A stretch of DNA of 64,000 nucleotides from Peptococcaceae bacterium (GCA_024655825.1 JANLFJ010000002.1:62001-126000); one strand, 5' to 3'; shown: positions 37,393 through 45,143, numbered from the stretch's first letter. Notes: a model not told the origin generated them from the letters alone. Made by a program: numbers and translations.

Positions 37393-37680
37393 TTGCGCCA
37401 TTTTTTTCGCATTGAGGCATATATATGTACCGAAAAAGATAAACCTTTATCGCCAAAATACTACCGAAAAAAGAAATATTACCCAGTCTTGGAGCAGTTA
37501 AGCATTAAGAAACTAAGCCCTCATGCTTGTCGGCATACTTTTGCCAGTTTAATGGCTAGGGCTAAAGTGGACCCGCTCTATATAAAAAAGATAATCGGTC
37601 ATTCAAACTATGCTTTTATGGCCAATACCTATACTCACACTGACATTGAAGAACTTAAAAAAGCAATAAACACTATATAA
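37393..37680 (+). pseudogene. Tyrosine recombinase (phage-type integrase), C-terminal remnant
   Basis: About 90 codons with the last catalytic motifs of tyrosine recombinases: HACRHTFASLMA (His-x-x-Arg), IGHSN (His) and the nucleophile in ANTYTHT. The N-terminal DNA-binding domain and the first catalytic Arg are missing, and the sequence before about 37420 does not look coding. It lies 130 bp from the 3' end of tRNA-Val, the usual attachment place, so it marks an old integrated element. Confidence 0.8.
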
Positions 37681-37760
37681 TTTTTGTTAGTTACTTGTTA
37701 GTTACCGCCCTAATTTTCAGCGATTTACAGAGACTTTTTGCCTATATGGTAGAATATGTT

Positions 37761-37794
37761 AAAAGCCTACAATCCTTTAGGACTGTGGGCTTTT
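37761..37794 (-). terminator. Terminator after tRNA-Val
   Basis: A 15-bp imperfect stem (AAAAGCCTACAATCC against GGACTGTGGGCTTTT) with a four-base loop, 13 bases beyond the 3' end of tRNA-Val. Confidence 0.65.
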
Positions 37795-37806
37795 GGGTTT
37801 TCTTTA

Positions 37807-37884
37807 TGGTGGGCGGTACTGGGTTCGAACCAGTGACCCCATGCATGTCAAGCATGTACTCTAACCAGACTGAGCTAACCGCCC
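37807..37884 (-). tRNA. tRNA-Val(GAC)
   Basis: Minus strand: acceptor GGGCGGT/ACCGCCC, D-arm with TTAGCTCAG, anticodon stem CATGC/GCATG around TTGACAT (anticodon GAC, reading GUC/GUU), T-arm with GGTTCGAACC, discriminator A and encoded CCA at 37809-37807. Confidence 0.95.
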
Positions 37885-37911
37885 GTATTCTTGACATAAT
37901 GCCTATGCTTT

Positions 37912-37940
37912 ATTATAATTTGGTAGGCGGCTGTTGTCAA
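37912..37940 (-). promoter_or_regulatory. tRNA-Val promoter
   Basis: Consensus TTGACA (37940-37935) and TATAAT (37917-37912) on the minus strand with a 17-base spacer. Confidence 0.85.
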
Positions 37941-37988
37941 ATGAGAATCATTTACTTCTTTTGCAATGTGTAGTCCAAAAACAACCAA

Positions 37989-38017
37989 TTGCATAGAAGA
38001 AAGAACACTGTTATAAT
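37989..38017 (+). promoter_or_regulatory. tRNA-His promoter
   Basis: TTGCAT (37989-37994) and TATAAT (38012-38017) with a 17-base spacer, 17 bases before the tRNA. Confidence 0.8.
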
Positions 38018-38034
38018 AAGGACAAGCATGAAAA

Positions 38035-38107
38035 GGGGATTGTGGTGCAGAGGTCGCACTCAGGTTCGTGGCACCTGAATACGTGGGTTCGATTCCCACC
38101 GGTCCTC
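38035..38107 (+). tRNA. tRNA-His(GTG), divergent
   Basis: Cloverleaf: extra G(-1) at 38035 facing C73 at 38107 (the histidine identity pair), acceptor GGGATTG/CGGTCCT with three G-U pairs, D-stem GTGC/GCAC with GG in the loop, anticodon stem CAGGT/ACCTG around TCGTGGC (anticodon GTG), variable loop AATAC, T-arm GTGGG-TTCGATT-CCCAC. Position 33 is C, not the near-universal U, and CCA is not encoded. It has a good promoter and terminator, so it is expressed, but function is uncertain. Confidence 0.7.
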
Positions 38108-38140
38108 TTCGGCGCATCTTATCATGGATGCGTTGTTTTG

Positions 38141-38249: not shown

Positions 38250-39503
38250 GTGATACCTGCTTTAAAAAAAATAATCCCCGGCTCAGCCTTCTTCTTAACG
38301 CTGGTCCTGTTCTTGTTTTCCCCAGCTTTGCCGGCGGCCAATTCCCCCTGGGAAATTGAAAAGGGAGAAAAAATGATTGAAGGGATCTTGCTTTCCCTCG
38401 ACAGCGAACGTGTCCGGATAAAAACCTTCCGGCACCATCAAGATTTTCCGCTGGCTCCTGATGCGCTCCTCGCTCTCATGGGCAGGCAGTCGGGACGGCT
38501 TGTCTCGCATGTTCATTTTCCCACAAACATTGAGGTAGAACTGTACATAAACGCCTCGGGCGCCGTCAGGGCTATCCGCAACAGGCAGGTCTCCCTTAAA
38601 CTTCCTGAAGGTGCAGCGCTGCAGGGCTGGGGCCATCAAGCCTTATTGAGTCCCGATGGCCAATATTACTTGCTGTACCACCGGGAAACCGGTCTTCACC
38701 TGTACAGTAAACAGCAGGCGCAGCCTTCAGCCTTTCTCGCCGGCAGCCCCACGGCGGACTGGAACGCAAGCGGCGAGATAGCCCTGGGCTTGCCCGATAA
38801 AATCATGATTTACAACCCCCGCAAAAAAACGAAAAAAAATTTGCCCTTACCCGCTTTGCCAAAAGGAACTTCACGCGTCATCACAGCTTTAAAATGGAAC
38901 TGCGCAGGAAACAAGCTTTTTTACGTCGCTGTTGAAGATGTACCCGATACCGGGAGCGACCTCTGTTCGCTGGCCGTCATGGATAAAAACGGCTGCCTGC
39001 TGGGAAGCAAGCCGGTCGCCAACCTTGGCCCAGCCGTTTGGTTGAAAAACGACCGCATTCTCTATATCTCTTATGAAAATATGGACGGTGACAGGGGCCG
39101 GATCATGCTCTGGGATTATCTTTCAGAACAGGAGGAATTCTTTTGGGCAGGCAGGGAGGAAGACTGCACCGGCCTGGCCTATAACCCGAAGACTGAGGTC
39201 CTGGCTTTTACCGCCAAAAAATTTGCGGGAGAAAGCCTTTACCTGCTCAAGGCCAACAGCGGAAAACCGGTCCTTGCCCTAAGCTGGCCGTTTCCGCTTC
39301 GCAACCTGCAGTGGTCGCCGGGTGGCGCTCTCTTTTTCTGGGATGAATACAACAACTGCGTTTATGAACTGCAAAACGAGGACCAGCTTGCGCTTCCCCG
39401 CGCCGCCGGCTATCTTCCCCCGGCCGGGACAGGAAAAGACGGGTTTGTCTACTTCCTGTCGGAGCCCCTGGAAGAACCCCAGCAGCCTTTTTTCAAGCAA
39501 TAA
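38250..39503 (+). CDS. Exported beta-propeller-like protein
   Basis: 417 residues from a GTG at 38250 (CGGAGG upstream). Residues 1-30 are a signal peptide ending in Ala-Leu-Pro-Ala-Ala. The rest contains repeated strands with Ser-Pro-Asp-Gly-type turns (LLSPDGQYYLLYH, TADWNASGEIALG, NLQWSPGGALFFW), as in TolB/WD40-like propellers. No enzyme motif is seen. It lies 102 bases upstream of the PqqD-like gene on the same strand and may belong to the RiPP locus, for example in sensing or immunity, but this is only position-based. Confidence 0.6.
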   Translation: MIPALKKIIPGSAFFLTLVLFLFSPALPAANSPWEIEKGEKMIEGILLSLDSERVRIKTFRHHQDFPLAPDALLALMGRQSGRLVSHVHFPTNIEVELYINASGAVRAIRNRQVSLKLPEGAALQGWGHQALLSPDGQYYLLYHRETGLHLYSKQQAQPSAFLAGSPTADWNASGEIALGLPDKIMIYNPRKKTKKNLPLPALPKGTSRVITALKWNCAGNKLFYVAVEDVPDTGSDLCSLAVMDKNGCLLGSKPVANLGPAVWLKNDRILYISYENMDGDRGRIMLWDYLSEQEEFFWAGREEDCTGLAYNPKTEVLAFTAKKFAGESLYLLKANSGKPVLALSWPFPLRNLQWSPGGALFFWDEYNNCVYELQNEDQLALPRAAGYLPPAGTGKDGFVYFLSEPLEEPQQPFFKQ

Positions 39504-39605
39504 AAACAACGGAAAAGGTAATGGCAACTTTATGGCGAATATAACTTATTGAATCCGTAATCATACTTTCATCTTTTAGACCGAAATGAAAGGAGCCATA
39601 AAATT

Positions 39606-39905
39606 TTGAAGAATACCATAAGTTGTGAAAGCTTCCCCTTAAAAAAACCAGACGCGGCTTACCGGACAATCCTTTCTGAATTAATCCTCTTAAACCTGGA
39701 CAACGGCTTTTACTACAGTGCCAACGAAGTTGGCTCAAGACTGTGGGAGCTTTGTGACGGCAAAAGACCCGTAAAGGACCTCATCGCCATAATCAGCGAG
39801 GAATACGAGGTTGCTGAAGAAGAGGCGGCAGGCGACGTGCTTGAATTCATAGGTGATTTGTACCGTGAAGGACTTATCACGCTCCAAGATGAACCGGAAA
39901 ATTAA
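39606..39905 (+). CDS. PqqD-like RiPP recognition element (lasso B1-type)
   Basis: 99 residues from a TTG ten bases after AAAGGAG. The PqqD fold is recognisable: LILLNLDNGFYYSANEVGSR, LWELCDGKRPVKDLIAII, then an acidic helix and a C-terminal LYREGLITL. Free-standing PqqD-like proteins grip the leader of a RiPP precursor and present it to the B2 peptidase. The gene overlaps the B2 gene by 17 bases. The expected partner, a leader with YxxP.L spacing, is encoded at 44913-45029. Confidence 0.9.
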   Translation: MKNTISCESFPLKKPDAAYRTILSELILLNLDNGFYYSANEVGSRLWELCDGKRPVKDLIAIISEEYEVAEEEAAGDVLEFIGDLYREGLITLQDEPEN

Positions 39906-40317
39906 AGATGCGCCCCGCATAATTTGGTTTTGCCTGCGCGTATTCATGGCAGCTCTCCTGCTTTCTGCTCTTCTTCCGGCAATCAAGTTCCCGCGCCTGC
40001 TGAAAATCATTCACTACAGGCAAACGGCCGCGCCTGAAAAAAGAATTGATTCCCAAGACATTATCCGGATAGTCAATTTCGTTGCCCGGTTAAAATATTT
40101 TGTTATCAGGAACAATTGCCTGAAAAAATCTCTTCTTCTATACTATTTCCTGGGAAAAACCGGCTTAAAAAACCTCGAACTCGTAATCGGCGTGAAAAAA
40201 AACACCGGCCGGCTGTCGGGCCACAGCTGGCTTGCCCTGGACAGCCGTCCATTTCTCGAGGACTGGGATTCCATAAAGGAGTTCCAAATTATTTATTCGT
40301 CAGGAGCCAGAAAGTGA
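39889..40317 (+). CDS. Lasso-type B2 leader peptidase (transglutaminase-like fold)
   Basis: 142 residues from the ATG at 39889. One N-terminal hydrophobic segment (about 10-30), then the catalytic Cys in NNCLKKSLLLYYFL, the His in GHSWLALD and a following Asp, the triad of McjB-C/B2 cysteine proteases. It cuts the leader from the precursor after the B1 protein has bound it. The GTG of the next gene overlaps its stop. An ATG at 39853 is open in frame but would overlap the B1 gene more. Confidence 0.9.
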   Translation: MNRKIKDAPRIIWFCLRVFMAALLLSALLPAIKFPRLLKIIHYRQTAAPEKRIDSQDIIRIVNFVARLKYFVIRNNCLKKSLLLYYFLGKTGLKNLELVIGVKKNTGRLSGHSWLALDSRPFLEDWDSIKEFQIIYSSGARK

Positions 40318-41288
40318 GCAAGACTTATAAACATCATTATTTTGAAATCGGGCCTATCGCGCTAAAAATCGGTTCGGACTCCGGCGCTTTGCTTGAAGCC
40401 GTCCGCTCATGGCTGCAGCCCTTTGCCTGCGATAAACAGACCCAGCGTGCACAAATCAGCGCTCTTTTGCTCAGCTGCGACGAGGATAGAGCCGTGCCCT
40501 TCAAGCTTCCAAAAGACATTCCCTGTTTCTTTGAAGGGCCATCGACCAGGTATTTTTCATATAAAGGCCTGCTGGTGGCCGACTTCCCGAAGTTGGGAAA
40601 GGCCGTGATTAACAGGGAGCAGGGAAAATTTTTGGGTTTGGCTTATACCTCCCGCCTCCTGGCGTCTCCCTGGGACCTCGAGCACTTCCTTCACCCCATC
40701 TGGGAACTCCTGCGGCAAAAAGGAGTCTACCAGTACCATGCGGGCGCGGTTTGCCTGAATGAGCGGGGCCTGCTTCTGGCCGGAAAATCGGGCCAGGGAA
40801 AAACCACCTTAACCCTTGACCTTATCTCGCGGGGGTTCCTTTTCCTGGCCGATGATACCTGTTTTTTGCGCAATGCGGAAACGGGCGTTGAGGTCATCGG
40901 GTTTGGCGAACCCGTGCGCGTTTTTCCCGAAAACGTATCCCACATCAAAGAGTTGGCCTGCCTGAAAAGCGGCCAGCGAAACGACAAGATCAGCCTGGCT
41001 GTGGAACAACATTATCCTGAAGCGAATAAAAAAAGCTGCTCTCTCAGCGGCATCCTCTTCCCCTCCTGGGTTCCCGGCGAAAAAAGCCGGTTGGTGGCAC
41101 TATCCCCCGCCCAGGCCGCGCTGGAACTGCTGCCGCTTACGATGGTCTGCTTTGACGCCGGCACGTCACGGCGGCATTTTGACCTCAACTGCCGTCTTGT
41201 TTCAGAACTCCCCTGCGCCGTATTAAAAATGGGGAAGGACAGAGAACGCTGGCATCCTCTGGTCCTGGACTTTATTGAAAACCGCTAG
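40314..41288 (+). CDS. HprK-like kinase of a lasso-type RiPP locus
   Basis: 324 residues from a GTG at 40314 with AGGAG seven bases upstream; the frame open to 40116 is inside the B2 gene. The C-terminal half has the HPr-kinase/PEPCK-like P-loop GKSGQGKTTLTL near residue 162, after a YQYHAGAVCL segment, and a FLADDT motif (Walker B-like). HprK-like kinases in lasso clusters such as paeninodin phosphorylate the C-terminal Ser of the precursor. Here the precursor core contains two Ser residues. Alternative: a self-protection or regulatory kinase. Confidence 0.85.
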   Translation: MSKTYKHHYFEIGPIALKIGSDSGALLEAVRSWLQPFACDKQTQRAQISALLLSCDEDRAVPFKLPKDIPCFFEGPSTRYFSYKGLLVADFPKLGKAVINREQGKFLGLAYTSRLLASPWDLEHFLHPIWELLRQKGVYQYHAGAVCLNERGLLLAGKSGQGKTTLTLDLISRGFLFLADDTCFLRNAETGVEVIGFGEPVRVFPENVSHIKELACLKSGQRNDKISLAVEQHYPEANKKSCSLSGILFPSWVPGEKSRLVALSPAQAALELLPLTMVCFDAGTSRRHFDLNCRLVSELPCAVLKMGKDRERWHPLVLDFIENR

Positions 41289-41317
41289 ACATTTTCCTTA
41301 GAAGCTGGTGTCAGTAA

Positions 41318-42277
41318 ATGTTGTTTGACCCAACAGCAAAAAGCGAAGCGGGCTGGTACGCCCCCATGTTTTTATACAGCCTGCATCCCGCCGCATTCCC
41401 CCTGGAAAAAGACGGTGAGGAAATAAGGAACACCATGCGGCAGATCGGGCTTCGAAACCTGAGCCTGGAAAAAGAACTCGCCGGCATCTTAAAAGCGCTG
41501 GAAACCGTCCATGTTCCCGTCATTCTCCTCAAGGGATGCCACCTCGTCCAGGCAATATACCCATGGGACGTCAGACCCGTAGGGGATATGGACCTGCTTA
41601 TCAAGCGGGAGGATTTTCCCAGGGCGCACAAGGTCATCAGGGATTTGGGCTACCAACCCTGGATGGAAAATTTTCCCCTGTGGATTCACTGCCACTTCTC
41701 AGGCAAGCTCACCTATACGCGCTCGCGGGAAAAAGAACCTTTCATTCCCCTGGACCTTCACTTTTCCTTGGGCCCCTACCCTTATCTCGCCCGTATAGAG
41801 CCACCTGTCCTGTGGAACAAAGCCCGCGAAATACAGATTAACGGCCATAAGGCCTACACCCTTTGCCCCGAACACCTTCTCATCCATCTTAGCCTTCATC
41901 TCCTGCAGCACACTCCCGACCACTGGCCGGTATGCGGCTGCGACATCGCCGCCTTAATCCATCATGAAGGAAGCCGGTTTCCCTGGGAAGGTTTCCTGGT
42001 GGAAACAAAAAAAGCGGGTGTTAACCGGCCGGTACGTTTTGCTCTGGAAAAAGTCGGCGAAATGTTCGGCGAGCTTGTTCCCGAAGAGATTCTTAACCGC
42101 CTGGCCAAACTCCCGCCCGGCAAGCCGGGCTGGAACCTGAACCTGCACTTCGCCTGCCAGAAAAGCGAAGTCAAAAAATACTTGCTCCAGTTTTTAAGCA
42201 CCCCCGGCTGGCGGGCAAAACTGGGCTGCTTCCCTTACATCCTGCCATTTTTCCTGCGGAGGTTAAAAAACCGTTGA
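41318..42277 (+). CDS. Nucleotidyltransferase-family protein of the RiPP locus
   Basis: 319 residues. The nucleotidyltransferase core reads VILLKGCHLVQAIY, RPVGDMDLLIKREDFPRA (catalytic Asp-x-Asp) and LDLHFSL (third Asp), followed by a helical domain with HLLIHLSLHLLQH. Proteins of this family accompany HprK-like kinases in lasso clusters, where they are proposed to extend or modify the phosphorylated peptide. It overlaps the ABC ATPase gene by four bases. Confidence 0.85.
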   Translation: MLFDPTAKSEAGWYAPMFLYSLHPAAFPLEKDGEEIRNTMRQIGLRNLSLEKELAGILKALETVHVPVILLKGCHLVQAIYPWDVRPVGDMDLLIKREDFPRAHKVIRDLGYQPWMENFPLWIHCHFSGKLTYTRSREKEPFIPLDLHFSLGPYPYLARIEPPVLWNKAREIQINGHKAYTLCPEHLLIHLSLHLLQHTPDHWPVCGCDIAALIHHEGSRFPWEGFLVETKKAGVNRPVRFALEKVGEMFGELVPEEILNRLAKLPPGKPGWNLNLHFACQKSEVKKYLLQFLSTPGWRAKLGCFPYILPFFLRRLKNR

Positions 42278-43050
42278 ATTATGCCCTCTCACTCAGTAAT
42301 GTGTCCAAAACATACCAGGTTTCGCGGCTGCCTTTTGGCCGGAAAACCGTTTATACGGCCCTTTCCGGCATTTCGCTCAATATTATGCGGGGAGAGGTTT
42401 TCGCCCTGCTGGGGCCTAATGGAGCCGGCAAAACCACCCTGATCAAGATCATCTGCGGCCTGATCCGGCCAACTGAAGGAAGTGTTAAGATCAACGGGCA
42501 CGATGCCCTCAGGGATGAGGTTGAGGCCAAAAAAAGCATCGGCTGCTGCCTGGAAAGCGAGCGAAGTTTTTATTACCGGATTTCCGGCAGGCAAAACCTC
42601 GCTTTTTTTGCCTCCCTGGACAACCTGAAAAGAAAAGAGGCCGCCGAAAAGGCGGGCGCTTTATTAAAGGTCCTGGACCTGGACAGTGTCGCCGACACGC
42701 CGTTTATGCACTATTCCTCCGGGCAAAGGCAGCGTCTTAACTTGGCCCGCGCCCTCCTGAAGGACCCGTCTATAATCATCCTTGATGAACCCACAAAAAG
42801 CCTGGACCCCGGAGCTGCCGAAAACTTCTGGAAGGTCTTGAAAGAATGGGTGGCAAACGAACCTGAAAGAACGGTCCTTTTCTCAACCCACAGCCTGGAA
42901 GAAGCGGAAAGATTCGGCACCAGCCTGGCTTTCCTCGACGAAGGCAAAGTCAAGGCTCACGGAAGCCTTCAAGAAATTAGGCGGCGGTTCAAACAGGAAA
43001 GCCTGCGGGCCGTATACCGGCAGGTAATTGATAAAGGAGGGCTGGATTGA
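42274..43050 (+). CDS. ABC exporter ATPase
   Basis: 258 residues from a TTG overlapping the upstream stop. Walker A GPNGAGKTT, signature YSSGQRQRLNLARALL, Walker B IIILDEPTKSLDP and the switch His in FSTHSLEEA. It belongs to the DrrA/CcmA-like group that pairs with ABC-2 permeases, here the next gene, and probably powers export of the mature peptide or immunity. Confidence 0.92.
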   Translation: MNYALSLSNVSKTYQVSRLPFGRKTVYTALSGISLNIMRGEVFALLGPNGAGKTTLIKIICGLIRPTEGSVKINGHDALRDEVEAKKSIGCCLESERSFYYRISGRQNLAFFASLDNLKRKEAAEKAGALLKVLDLDSVADTPFMHYSSGQRQRLNLARALLKDPSIIILDEPTKSLDPGAAENFWKVLKEWVANEPERTVLFSTHSLEEAERFGTSLAFLDEGKVKAHGSLQEIRRRFKQESLRAVYRQVIDKGGLD

Positions 43051-43051
43051 C

Positions 43052-43828
43052 TTGCTGGAAAGAGGGATAGCGTTTATAAAACGCGATTTTTTAATTGATA
43101 CCAGTTACCGGGTTAATTTTCTCTTGAACATATTGAACACCTTTTTCCGCGTATCTTTTTTTTATTTCTTTTCACTTTTTATTGGTGTGGAAAATTATTT
43201 TCCTTTTGTTCTGGTGGGCATAGCCCTCTTTGATTATTTTTCTGTTCTTACCCGTTCCTTTTCGGAAACCCTGCGGGAAGCCCAGCAGGAAGGGACGCTG
43301 GAAGCATTGGCCTCAACCTTAACGCCCCTTTTCATTTGTATTGTTTTTTCCGGTCTTTACCCGCTCCTGTACACTGTTTTCCAAATTCTTTTGTACTTTA
43401 TCATCGGCGCCAGCTTCTATCACCTTTCTTTGGCCGGCGCGAATTATCCCGCCGCCCTGCTCGTCATGCTCACCGCCACTTTTTCTTTTGCCGGGTTCGG
43501 CCTTCTCTCCAGCATTTTCGTCCTTGTTTACAAACGCGGCGACCCGCTGATCTGGGTGTTAAACAGCCTCTCCTGGCTGCTTTCGGGAACACTGTATCCC
43601 GTTGCCGTGCTGCCCGGCTGGCTGCAGCAGGCCACAAAACTGCTGCCGCTCACCCACGCCCTCCAGGCCCTGCGGCTTACTCTTCTTGAGGGCGCTCCCC
43701 TCAGTAAGGCAGCCGTCCCCCTGGCTTTCCTGGCCGCCCTTTTCTTCATTACCAGTTCTCTGTTTATTTTCTTGTTTCCACGCGCCCTAAAAAAAGTAAA
43801 AAACGCGGCAGGCCTTTCCCAGTATTAG
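43052..43828 (+). CDS. ABC-2 type permease
   Basis: 258 residues from a TTG at 43052 after AAAGGAGG (the ribosome site lies inside the end of the ATPase gene). Six hydrophobic helices with the ABC-2 pattern, including a short amphipathic N-terminus, a LREAQQEGTLEALASTLTP coupling segment and a late LSGTLYPVAVLPGWLQ motif. It ends one base before the convergent glycosyltransferase gene. Confidence 0.88.
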   Translation: MLERGIAFIKRDFLIDTSYRVNFLLNILNTFFRVSFFYFFSLFIGVENYFPFVLVGIALFDYFSVLTRSFSETLREAQQEGTLEALASTLTPLFICIVFSGLYPLLYTVFQILLYFIIGASFYHLSLAGANYPAALLVMLTATFSFAGFGLLSSIFVLVYKRGDPLIWVLNSLSWLLSGTLYPVAVLPGWLQQATKLLPLTHALQALRLTLLEGAPLSKAAVPLAFLAALFFITSSLFIFLFPRALKKVKNAAGLSQY

Positions 43829-43829
43829 T

Positions 43830-44837
43830 TCAATGTTCGCCAACAGATTTTTTCAACAACCTGCAAACCTCAGGCATCATTTGATCATCTAAAGGCCAGG
43901 CAGTATTGTCCATTTCAAAAAGCCGCAGGCTATCTTGCACGTCTTCAAGCGCTTTCCTCGCTCGCTTTCCAACCTTAACCATAACGACTTCCCTGCATAC
44001 TTTAAGCTCGATGCTGGAAGGAAAAATGGCGAGCCCCTTTTCAATCGCCTCCATGATTTCTTCATTGGCGTACTTTTGACTTTCAATCATCGTCATGACT
44101 TTACTGATGTGTGTAAACCGCAGGTATGTCTCCTTCCTAAACGAATTGTATTGTAAGGCTGCCTCCAGGTGAAACATGGCCTTTTCCCAGTCCCCGGCGA
44201 GCCGGTGCATGTCGGCGAGATAAAAGTGTATCTCCCCGTCAGCGGAGTCTTTTTTCAACTCCTTTAAAAGCAAGGAAACGTTTCTTCCATATTTATTTTT
44301 ATCCTTCATTTTCTCCTGGTCGTAGCCGCTATGAAAAATGCCGACCTCGCGCCGGTAATCGGCGCAGCTCAACTCTCTTTCCGCATGGAACAGGTACTCG
44401 TGAACCGGGCGGCGGTAACGTATCCGGCTGTCGTTTTTAAAAATCCTGGCAACGCCTCCCCCGTAAACCGGCCCGTTCTCCTGGATGCCCAGGTTATACA
44501 AGGCGCAAAGAAGCACATCTTTCGTTTCGGCTGCCAGCGCTTTTTTGAGCCATGCCGCATCGGCCCGCAAATACTCGTCGGCGTCAAGAAAGACAACCCA
44601 ATCGCCCTTTGCTTGCTCCAGGGCATAATTGCGGGCTGAGGAAAAATCGTCGGCCCATTTAATACGGTGGATTTCCGCGCCGTGTTCCCTTGCTATCTCC
44701 AGCGTCCCGTCTCGCGAACCGGTATCGACCACCACCAGCCGGTCCGCCACTTCGCTTAGGCTTGACAGGCACTCGCCCAGCGTTTTTTCGTCGTCCCGGG
44801 ACATTACGCATCCGGTTATTGTCATCTGCAGCCTCAT
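43830..44837 (-). CDS. GT2 glycosyltransferase with TPR-like C-terminus (SunS-like)
   Basis: 335 residues from the ATG at 44837 (GAAGG eight bases upstream). GT-A core: TGCVMSRDDEKTLGECL, VVVDTGSRDGT, DFSSARNYAL and the metal motif FLDADEYL; then HSGYDQ typical of the SunS/WaaE-like group. Residues 185-330 are helices with a TPR repeat (IHFYLADMHRLAGDWEKAMF). SunS, of this build, glycosylates a RiPP precursor. Here the gene follows the candidate precursor gene on the same strand, so peptide glycosylation is a natural idea, but cell-surface roles also exist in this family. Confidence 0.85.
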   Translation of the reverse strand: MRLQMTITGCVMSRDDEKTLGECLSSLSEVADRLVVVDTGSRDGTLEIAREHGAEIHRIKWADDFSSARNYALEQAKGDWVVFLDADEYLRADAAWLKKALAAETKDVLLCALYNLGIQENGPVYGGGVARIFKNDSRIRYRRPVHEYLFHAERELSCADYRREVGIFHSGYDQEKMKDKNKYGRNVSLLLKELKKDSADGEIHFYLADMHRLAGDWEKAMFHLEAALQYNSFRKETYLRFTHISKVMTMIESQKYANEEIMEAIEKGLAIFPSSIELKVCREVVMVKVGKRARKALEDVQDSLRLFEMDNTAWPLDDQMMPEVCRLLKKSVGEH

Positions 44838-44860
44838 CTCGCTTGCCTTCAATTAAAAGC

Positions 44861-44886
44861 AACCCACCTGTAGATGCAGGTGGGTT
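44861..44886 (-). terminator. Intrinsic terminator/attenuator between precursor and glycosyltransferase genes
   Basis: Perfect ten-pair stem AACCCACCTG/CAGGTGGGTT with a six-base loop, followed on the minus strand by GCTTTTAATT. It lies 27 bases after the precursor stop. Such a partial terminator would make precursor mRNA more abundant than enzyme mRNA. Confidence 0.8.
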
Positions 44887-44912
44887 CAAGGTCACAGTTC
44901 ATATATGCTTGT

Positions 44913-45029
44913 TTACCCTACCGGGGACGGTCTGGGGTGTCCGCTCCGCAAAGTTACCTCCCTGAGCTGTTCATGTTTAACCAGGCTGGGCTTTATATAT
45001 CTCTTTTTTTTACTTTCCCTTTTTTGCAT
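44913..45029 (-). CDS. Candidate RiPP precursor peptide with lasso-type leader
   Basis: 38 residues from an ATG eight bases after GGGAGG. The leader is basic, then has Tyr-x2-Pro-x-Leu-x3-Glu-x-Leu-x3-Thr (YIKPSLVKHEQLREVT), which keeps the spacing of the lasso leader rule YxxPxLxxxGxFxxxT; Glu and Leu replace Gly and Phe. The Thr should be the residue two before the cut, leaving the core RSGHPRPSPVG. The core has no Asp or Glu for a lasso ring and is rich in Pro with two Ser. A consensus-like promoter, a terminator behind it and B1/B2/kinase genes across the strand support it. Confidence 0.75.
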   Translation of the reverse strand: MQKRESKKKRYIKPSLVKHEQLREVTLRSGHPRPSPVG

Positions 45030-45114
45030 TTCGGTTTCCTCCCGATTTTTATTAAGAATAATAGGCATAAGTTTAGAATATGCCGGTCTTTTCTTCGTCT
45101 GCCTGTATATTACT

Positions 45115-45143
45115 ATAATACCAGTAAGTTTAGTTTTTTTCAA
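45115..45143 (-). promoter_or_regulatory. Promoter of the candidate precursor gene
   Basis: Minus strand TTGAAA (45143-45138) and TATTAT (45120-45115) with a 17-base spacer. Start near 45108, giving a leader of about 80 bases. Confidence 0.7.

Follow-up and report, generated by a model that had tools for sequence, protein, structure and literature searches.

Can the leader-binding and leader-removal module of lasso peptide biosynthesis serve a peptide that carries no ring? This question is raised by a locus of a Peptococcaceae bacterium, located within a stretch of 64,000 nucleotides that was analysed as a whole (GCA_024655825.1 JANLFJ010000002.1:62001-126000; the window). Here, genes for B1, B2, an HprK-like kinase, a nucleotidyltransferase (NTase) and an ABC-2 exporter pair are tightly packed on the plus strand (39606-43828), while a 38-codon precursor gene occupies the facing strand (Table 1). 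The named enzyme genes and the short facing gene of the first-pass annotation are all confirmed by family profiles, gene overlaps and a ribosome site. The annotation had taken the full stretch from 38250 to 45143 as one machinery, which holds for the enzyme run but is uncertain for the first gene, encoding an exported protein, as no counterpart of it is seen in the related locus of Paenibacillus darwinianus. Within the run, the likely start codon of B2, the ATG at 39889, falls within the 3′ end of B1, and the GTG start of the kinase overlaps the B2 stop as GTGA; from these gene overlaps, the run looks translationally coupled. The peptidase residues Cys, His and Asp are all present in B2; a search of its profile against solved structures returned no match. 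Both B1 and B2 are single-copy in a whole-genome search. The P-loop of the kinase reads GKSGQGKT, and the enzyme probably acts on a Ser of a peptide, while the NTase, which contains GDMDLL, is a possible modifier of the resulting phosphate. We consider it probable that the cluster directs biosynthesis of a linear RiPP with a lasso-type leader, where the RRE protein B1 binds the precursor, the kinase modifies it, B2 cleaves it and the ABC-2 transporter exports it.

Table 1. Features of the cluster and its surroundings, in window coordinates.
Feature	Position	Strand	Basis
Exported beta-propeller-like protein, cluster membership uncertain	38250..39503	+	WD40-type matches, all below cut-off
B1, stand-alone PqqD-like RRE, predicted leader binder	39606..39905	+	PF05402, E=7e-21
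B2, lasso-type Cys peptidase, predicted leader removal	39889..40317	+	NF033537, 51.6 bits (cut-off 33)
HprK-like kinase	40314..41288	+	PF07475, just above cut-off
PF14907 nucleotidyltransferase	41318..42277	+	138 bits
ABC exporter ATPase, DrrA-like	42274..43050	+	
ABC-2 permease	43028..43828	+	PF01061, 34 bits
GT2-TPR glycosyltransferase, SunS-like, membership uncertain	43830..44852	-	TIGR04195, 86 bits (cut-off 350)
Intrinsic terminator directly 3′ of precursor	44861..44886	-	10-pair stem, 6 G-C, T-rich tail
Precursor peptide MQKRESKKKRYIKPSLVKHEQLREVTLRSGHPRPSPVG	44913..45029	-	Ribosome site, leader motif, P. darwinianus homologue
Promoter-like site of precursor gene	45115..45143	-	TTGAAA-17-TATTAT, extended -10, 10/12

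The precursor gene starts at the ATG at 45029, with GGGAGG 8 nt 5′ of it, while the TTG at 45143 is a mechanical start only. Preceded by a promoter-like site and a ribosome site and followed by a terminator, the gene looks like a single-gene transcript; both promoter and terminator are called from consensus alone. As first read, the predicted core, RSGHPRPSPVG, contains neither Asp nor Glu for ring closure, and thus lacks the acidic residue at position 7-9 that defines a lasso core. A precursor profile search of the bacterium's own genome found no second precursor; since the profile contained the window peptide itself, this result is informative only on the absence of other precursors.

Among 25 genomes of the order, no other B2 was found above the cut-off, and relatives were therefore sought further away. 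One is a locus of P. darwinianus (L082) that has the B1-B2-kinase-NTase order of the window, no cyclase, and a precursor on the opposite strand. This 56-residue precursor contains YEKPVLTKHARLKEVTLSS, identical to the window leader YIKPSLVKHEQLREVTLRS at 12 of 19 positions, a match with a score of 58, where none of 60 shuffles exceeded 35. Its leader Thr is followed by 28 residues, including an Asp able to close an 8-residue ring if cleavage occurs after T-L. A Pelotomaculum contig (L083) keeps B1-B2-kinase-NTase-ABC, with an ABC ATPase homologue in the equivalent position (E=6.5e-66), and in both relatives the NTase follows the kinase. The first-pass annotation had made its reading depend in part on the 38-codon gene being conserved in relatives that keep B1 and B2. 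P. darwinianus, which keeps both, encodes a homologous precursor, and the reading survives this comparison; the short Pelotomaculum contig stops after the ABC gene, too early to be informative. In the kinase tree, the window, Pelotomaculum and P. darwinianus enzymes form one clade (support 100/99), separate from paeninodin kinases, with the branches of Scalindua and of kinases like those of linear polyphosphorylated peptides (LPP) being long and unsure in placement. Searching genome contigs directly for B1 gave no match, and a profile of the window-clade kinases found none in 399 genomes of the G392 class, a set that lacks a positive control and so proves little. When plasmids were searched with the kinase of P. 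darwinianus, only partial matches appeared, all below 60% identity.

The absence of a cyclase, initially observed for the window, extends to the whole genome. The cyclase model (NF033535) has no match over its cut-off in the 64-kb window or anywhere in the 3.16-Mb assembly, which is 99.5% complete; the genome search for a cyclase and for other precursors, suggested in the first-pass annotation, thus found neither. Encoded elsewhere in this genome are four full-length AsnB-type proteins, all of which start MCGI and so keep the glutaminase Cys (Cys2), and three of their genes, judged from the translations of their neighbours, are located among polysaccharide genes. The top NF033535 score in the genome is 235 bits, versus 329-368 bits for the paeninodin-type cyclases of three control genomes, whose N-termini read MSAI, not MCG. 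Similarly, no lasso cyclase was found in P. darwinianus, where both full AsnB matches are of the MCG type, and in eight related genomes the model has no match whatever, which, within the completeness of these assemblies, excludes a trans-acting AsnB. A true lasso peptide, with its ring closed in trans by an AsnB encoded elsewhere in the genome, could draw on the four proteins present and on the Asp at a possible ring position of the P. darwinianus tail. However, retention of Cys2 in all four, the polysaccharide setting of three, a window core devoid of Asp and Glu, and the eight genomes that lack such a protein make this highly improbable.

More distant loci, gathered by scanning genome contigs with a B2 profile and by kinase searches, form a sister group from Syntrophomonas, Smithella, Syntrophaceae, another deltaproteobacterial MAG, an Atribacteria MAG and Bacillota MAGs. 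Most of these loci carry an additional B12-binding radical SAM enzyme and a DUF362 protein, and each encodes one to seven tiny precursors. Across 13 genomes (the window, P. darwinianus and 11 further), 35 precursors have the spacing [YF]..P.[LIVMA].....[LMIC]...T, every one of them on the strand opposite the enzymes. The tails after the leader Thr span about 6-14 residues, P. darwinianus (28) apart; all 35 contain Ser and none contains Cys. Ser is distributed among the tails more evenly than in all 20,000 permutations, where precursors from the same locus are not independent, and its position in sister-group tails is not fixed. A profile built solely from sister-group precursors places the window peptide at E=1.3, which is not significant, while inclusion of the P. 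darwinianus leader brings it to E=2.6e-4, with the next best match at 0.37. Because the sister-only profile misses the window peptide, the link between window and sister group rests on the enzymes, gene arrangement and leader pattern. It is an evenly balanced question whether the two constitute one family, spanning Bacillota, Thermodesulfobacteriota and Atribacterota, that uses B1 and B2 without a cyclase to make Ser-modified, linear, short-tailed peptides, which in the sister group would also be modified by the B12 radical SAM and DUF362 proteins. If true, this would imply chemistry not yet described.

Instead of being secreted as a free product, the modified peptide could also become attached to a cell-surface polysaccharide or take part in its assembly. 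Loci L062, L073 and L087 are found among polysaccharide genes, as read from ORF translations, and LPP clusters have the same location (PMC13381572); the many leaders that are almost identical yet bear tiny, variable tails would fit such a role as well. The window cluster, however, lies outside any clear polysaccharide locus, and we regard this fate of the peptide as unlikely.

Several other arrangements were observed alongside these loci. L075 (4855-9032) and L077 (7603-8942) contain seven and six near-identical tiny precursors, respectively, with hypervariable tails and all on one strand. In Candidatus Scalindua (L081, 6060-11785), a kinase, a SPASM-type radical SAM enzyme, B1, B2 and an NTase occur with no cyclase nearby, and the motif used found no YxxP peptide. 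Tandem pairs of HprK-like kinase genes without B1/B2 are present amid glycosyltransferase-like genes in L063 (9020-11336) and L064 (8726-10929); tandem HprK-like pairs of G014 and G068 were set aside for their lack of B1/B2. In one genome, an LPP-like set adjoins a paeninodin-type cluster (L065, 10843-17915) and comprises an RRE, a SipW-like peptidase below the curated cut-off, and short peptides with YxKP...FET. A motif match in L073 (3238-3315), on the same strand and outside a cluster, was dropped as chance.

The window also has a glycosyltransferase gene beside the precursor, which the first-pass annotation described as SunS-like. The gene stands, but its score, far under the TIGR04195 cut-off, does not place it in the SunS family. 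It is single-copy in the genome, with best matches within the order that are 29-39% identical. Its position 3′ of the precursor on the shared strand, and its uniqueness, could suggest a real precursor whose defining modification is glycosylation by this adjacent enzyme, in a glycocin-like manner. Yet a terminator separates the two genes, the P. darwinianus locus has no glycosyltransferase, and the peptide has no Cys; with a likeness limited to distant GT2 similarity and an enzyme that is not conserved, the system sits outside the glycocins, and we find such a modification improbable. From the linear, phosphorylated or glycosylated product first envisaged, phospho-Ser is retained as the predicted modification, suggested by a kinase and an NTase in a cluster without cyclase, while glycosylation by the SunS-like enzyme is not.

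Upstream of the cluster, at 37393-38108, tRNA-Val and tRNA-His adjoin a C-terminal phage-integrase fragment (PF00589) in DNA with a GC content of 0.415, below that of the window, which is likely an island boundary. The tRNAs and integrase remnant, along with the lack of another B2 in the order's genomes, make horizontal acquisition likely, while the GC content of the cluster (0.517) matches that of the window (0.51), and its composition is thus not visibly foreign. Such surroundings could also fit a decayed paeninodin-type lasso cluster that has lost its cyclase and yields no useful product, for the window enzymes are the paeninodin set minus the cyclase. Decay is nonetheless very unlikely: the cluster genes are all intact and coupled, P. 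darwinianus, Pelotomaculum and the sister group have the cyclase-less set as well, eight of the related genomes give no match to the cyclase model, the kinase is apart from paeninodin kinases, and the core has no Asp or Glu.

How might a linear, phosphorylated RiPP be made by this cluster? In LppB, D70 fixes the leader Tyr and N33 the Pro kink; RREs of paeninodin systems accommodate Trp and differ. The window B1 has Asn40 and Asp77 aligned with N33 and D70, where paeninodin B1s have Gly and Gln; the other cyclase-less B1s also have the Asn/Asp pair, except the Pelotomaculum fragment (Ser for Asn) and Scalindua (Asp missing). These pocket residues suggest that B1, as a stand-alone RRE, would bind the 38-residue precursor via YIKP.L. 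The kinase would then phosphorylate a tail Ser, most likely three residues past the leader Thr, by analogy with LppK, which phosphorylates core Ser3 at this distance (PMC13381572), and with BsfK of Bradymonas, which acts on Ser3 and is aided by a B1 that also aids B2 (PMC10368454). The PF14907 enzyme may extend or glycosylate the Ser phosphate, as the homologue PsmN is required for hexoses on phospho-Ser in pseudomycoidin; since loss of LppN changed nothing in the LPP study (PMC13381572), this step is the least certain. B2 is predicted to cut at the leader Thr or one residue later, leaving about RSGHPRPSPVG, which would stay linear because no cyclase exists, and the ABC-2 transporter would export the product. 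In essence, this scheme would be an LPP-like pathway with the signal-peptidase-type protease swapped for the lasso Cys peptidase B2.

B2, regarded as a lasso enzyme, is thereby suggested to serve ring-less systems too. Of the almost 8,000 lasso-type RRE matches reported by RRE-Finder, only about 4,000 co-occur with a peptidase and cyclase, and the remainder were taken as possible false positives (PMC7470986); clusters like the one described here could explain part of this gap. The window cluster also provides a compact gene set to study how B1, kinase and peptidase cooperate. In syntrophic anaerobes, the B12 radical SAM enzyme of the sister group and its loci of up to seven tiny precursors hint at unexplored peptide chemistry.

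Among known systems, lasso peptides share the B1/B2 pair for leader binding and proteolysis. Phosphorylated lasso peptides of the paeninodin/pseudomycoidin type additionally share the HprK-like kinase, the NTase and a [Y/W]xxP leader with Thr, but the window differs in having no macrolactam cyclase in the genome, no core Asp/Glu, a Tyr-type B1 pocket and a kinase of a different clade. The Bsf phosphorylated lasso peptide has a YxxPxL leader and the B1/B2/kinase set, yet also a cyclase, a Gly1-Asp8 ring and Ile at -2 (PMC10368454). LPPs are closest in design: without a cyclase and with a lasso-type leader (Popov et al. 2026; PMC13381572), they combine a stand-alone RRE, HprK-like kinase, NTP transferase and exporter with a Tyr-type YxxP leader, in which Thr marks the end where cleavage occurs and a Ser follows three residues later. 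Relative to the LPP consensus YxxPxVLxHQxIxFETxxS, the window leader shares Y, P, H, T and S but not F and E, the rest being conservative. With LPPs reported in 2026, cyclase-less linear phosphopeptides with lasso-type leaders are no longer new, and the proposal of a wholly new RiPP class does not hold. No description of a B2-type cyclase-less system was found in the open-access literature, a coverage mostly outside subscription journals and preprints. The two differ in exporter, MsbA-like in LPPs and ABC-2 type in the window, and in peptidase, where LPPs use a SipW-like signal peptidase (SpI) and the window gene run has none, with B2 in its place. The window system is therefore outside the lasso definition at the cyclase and core acid, and outside the LPP definition at the peptidase; its new part is B2 in place of a signal-peptidase-like enzyme, and 'B2-type linear peptide system' is the most fitting name for it.
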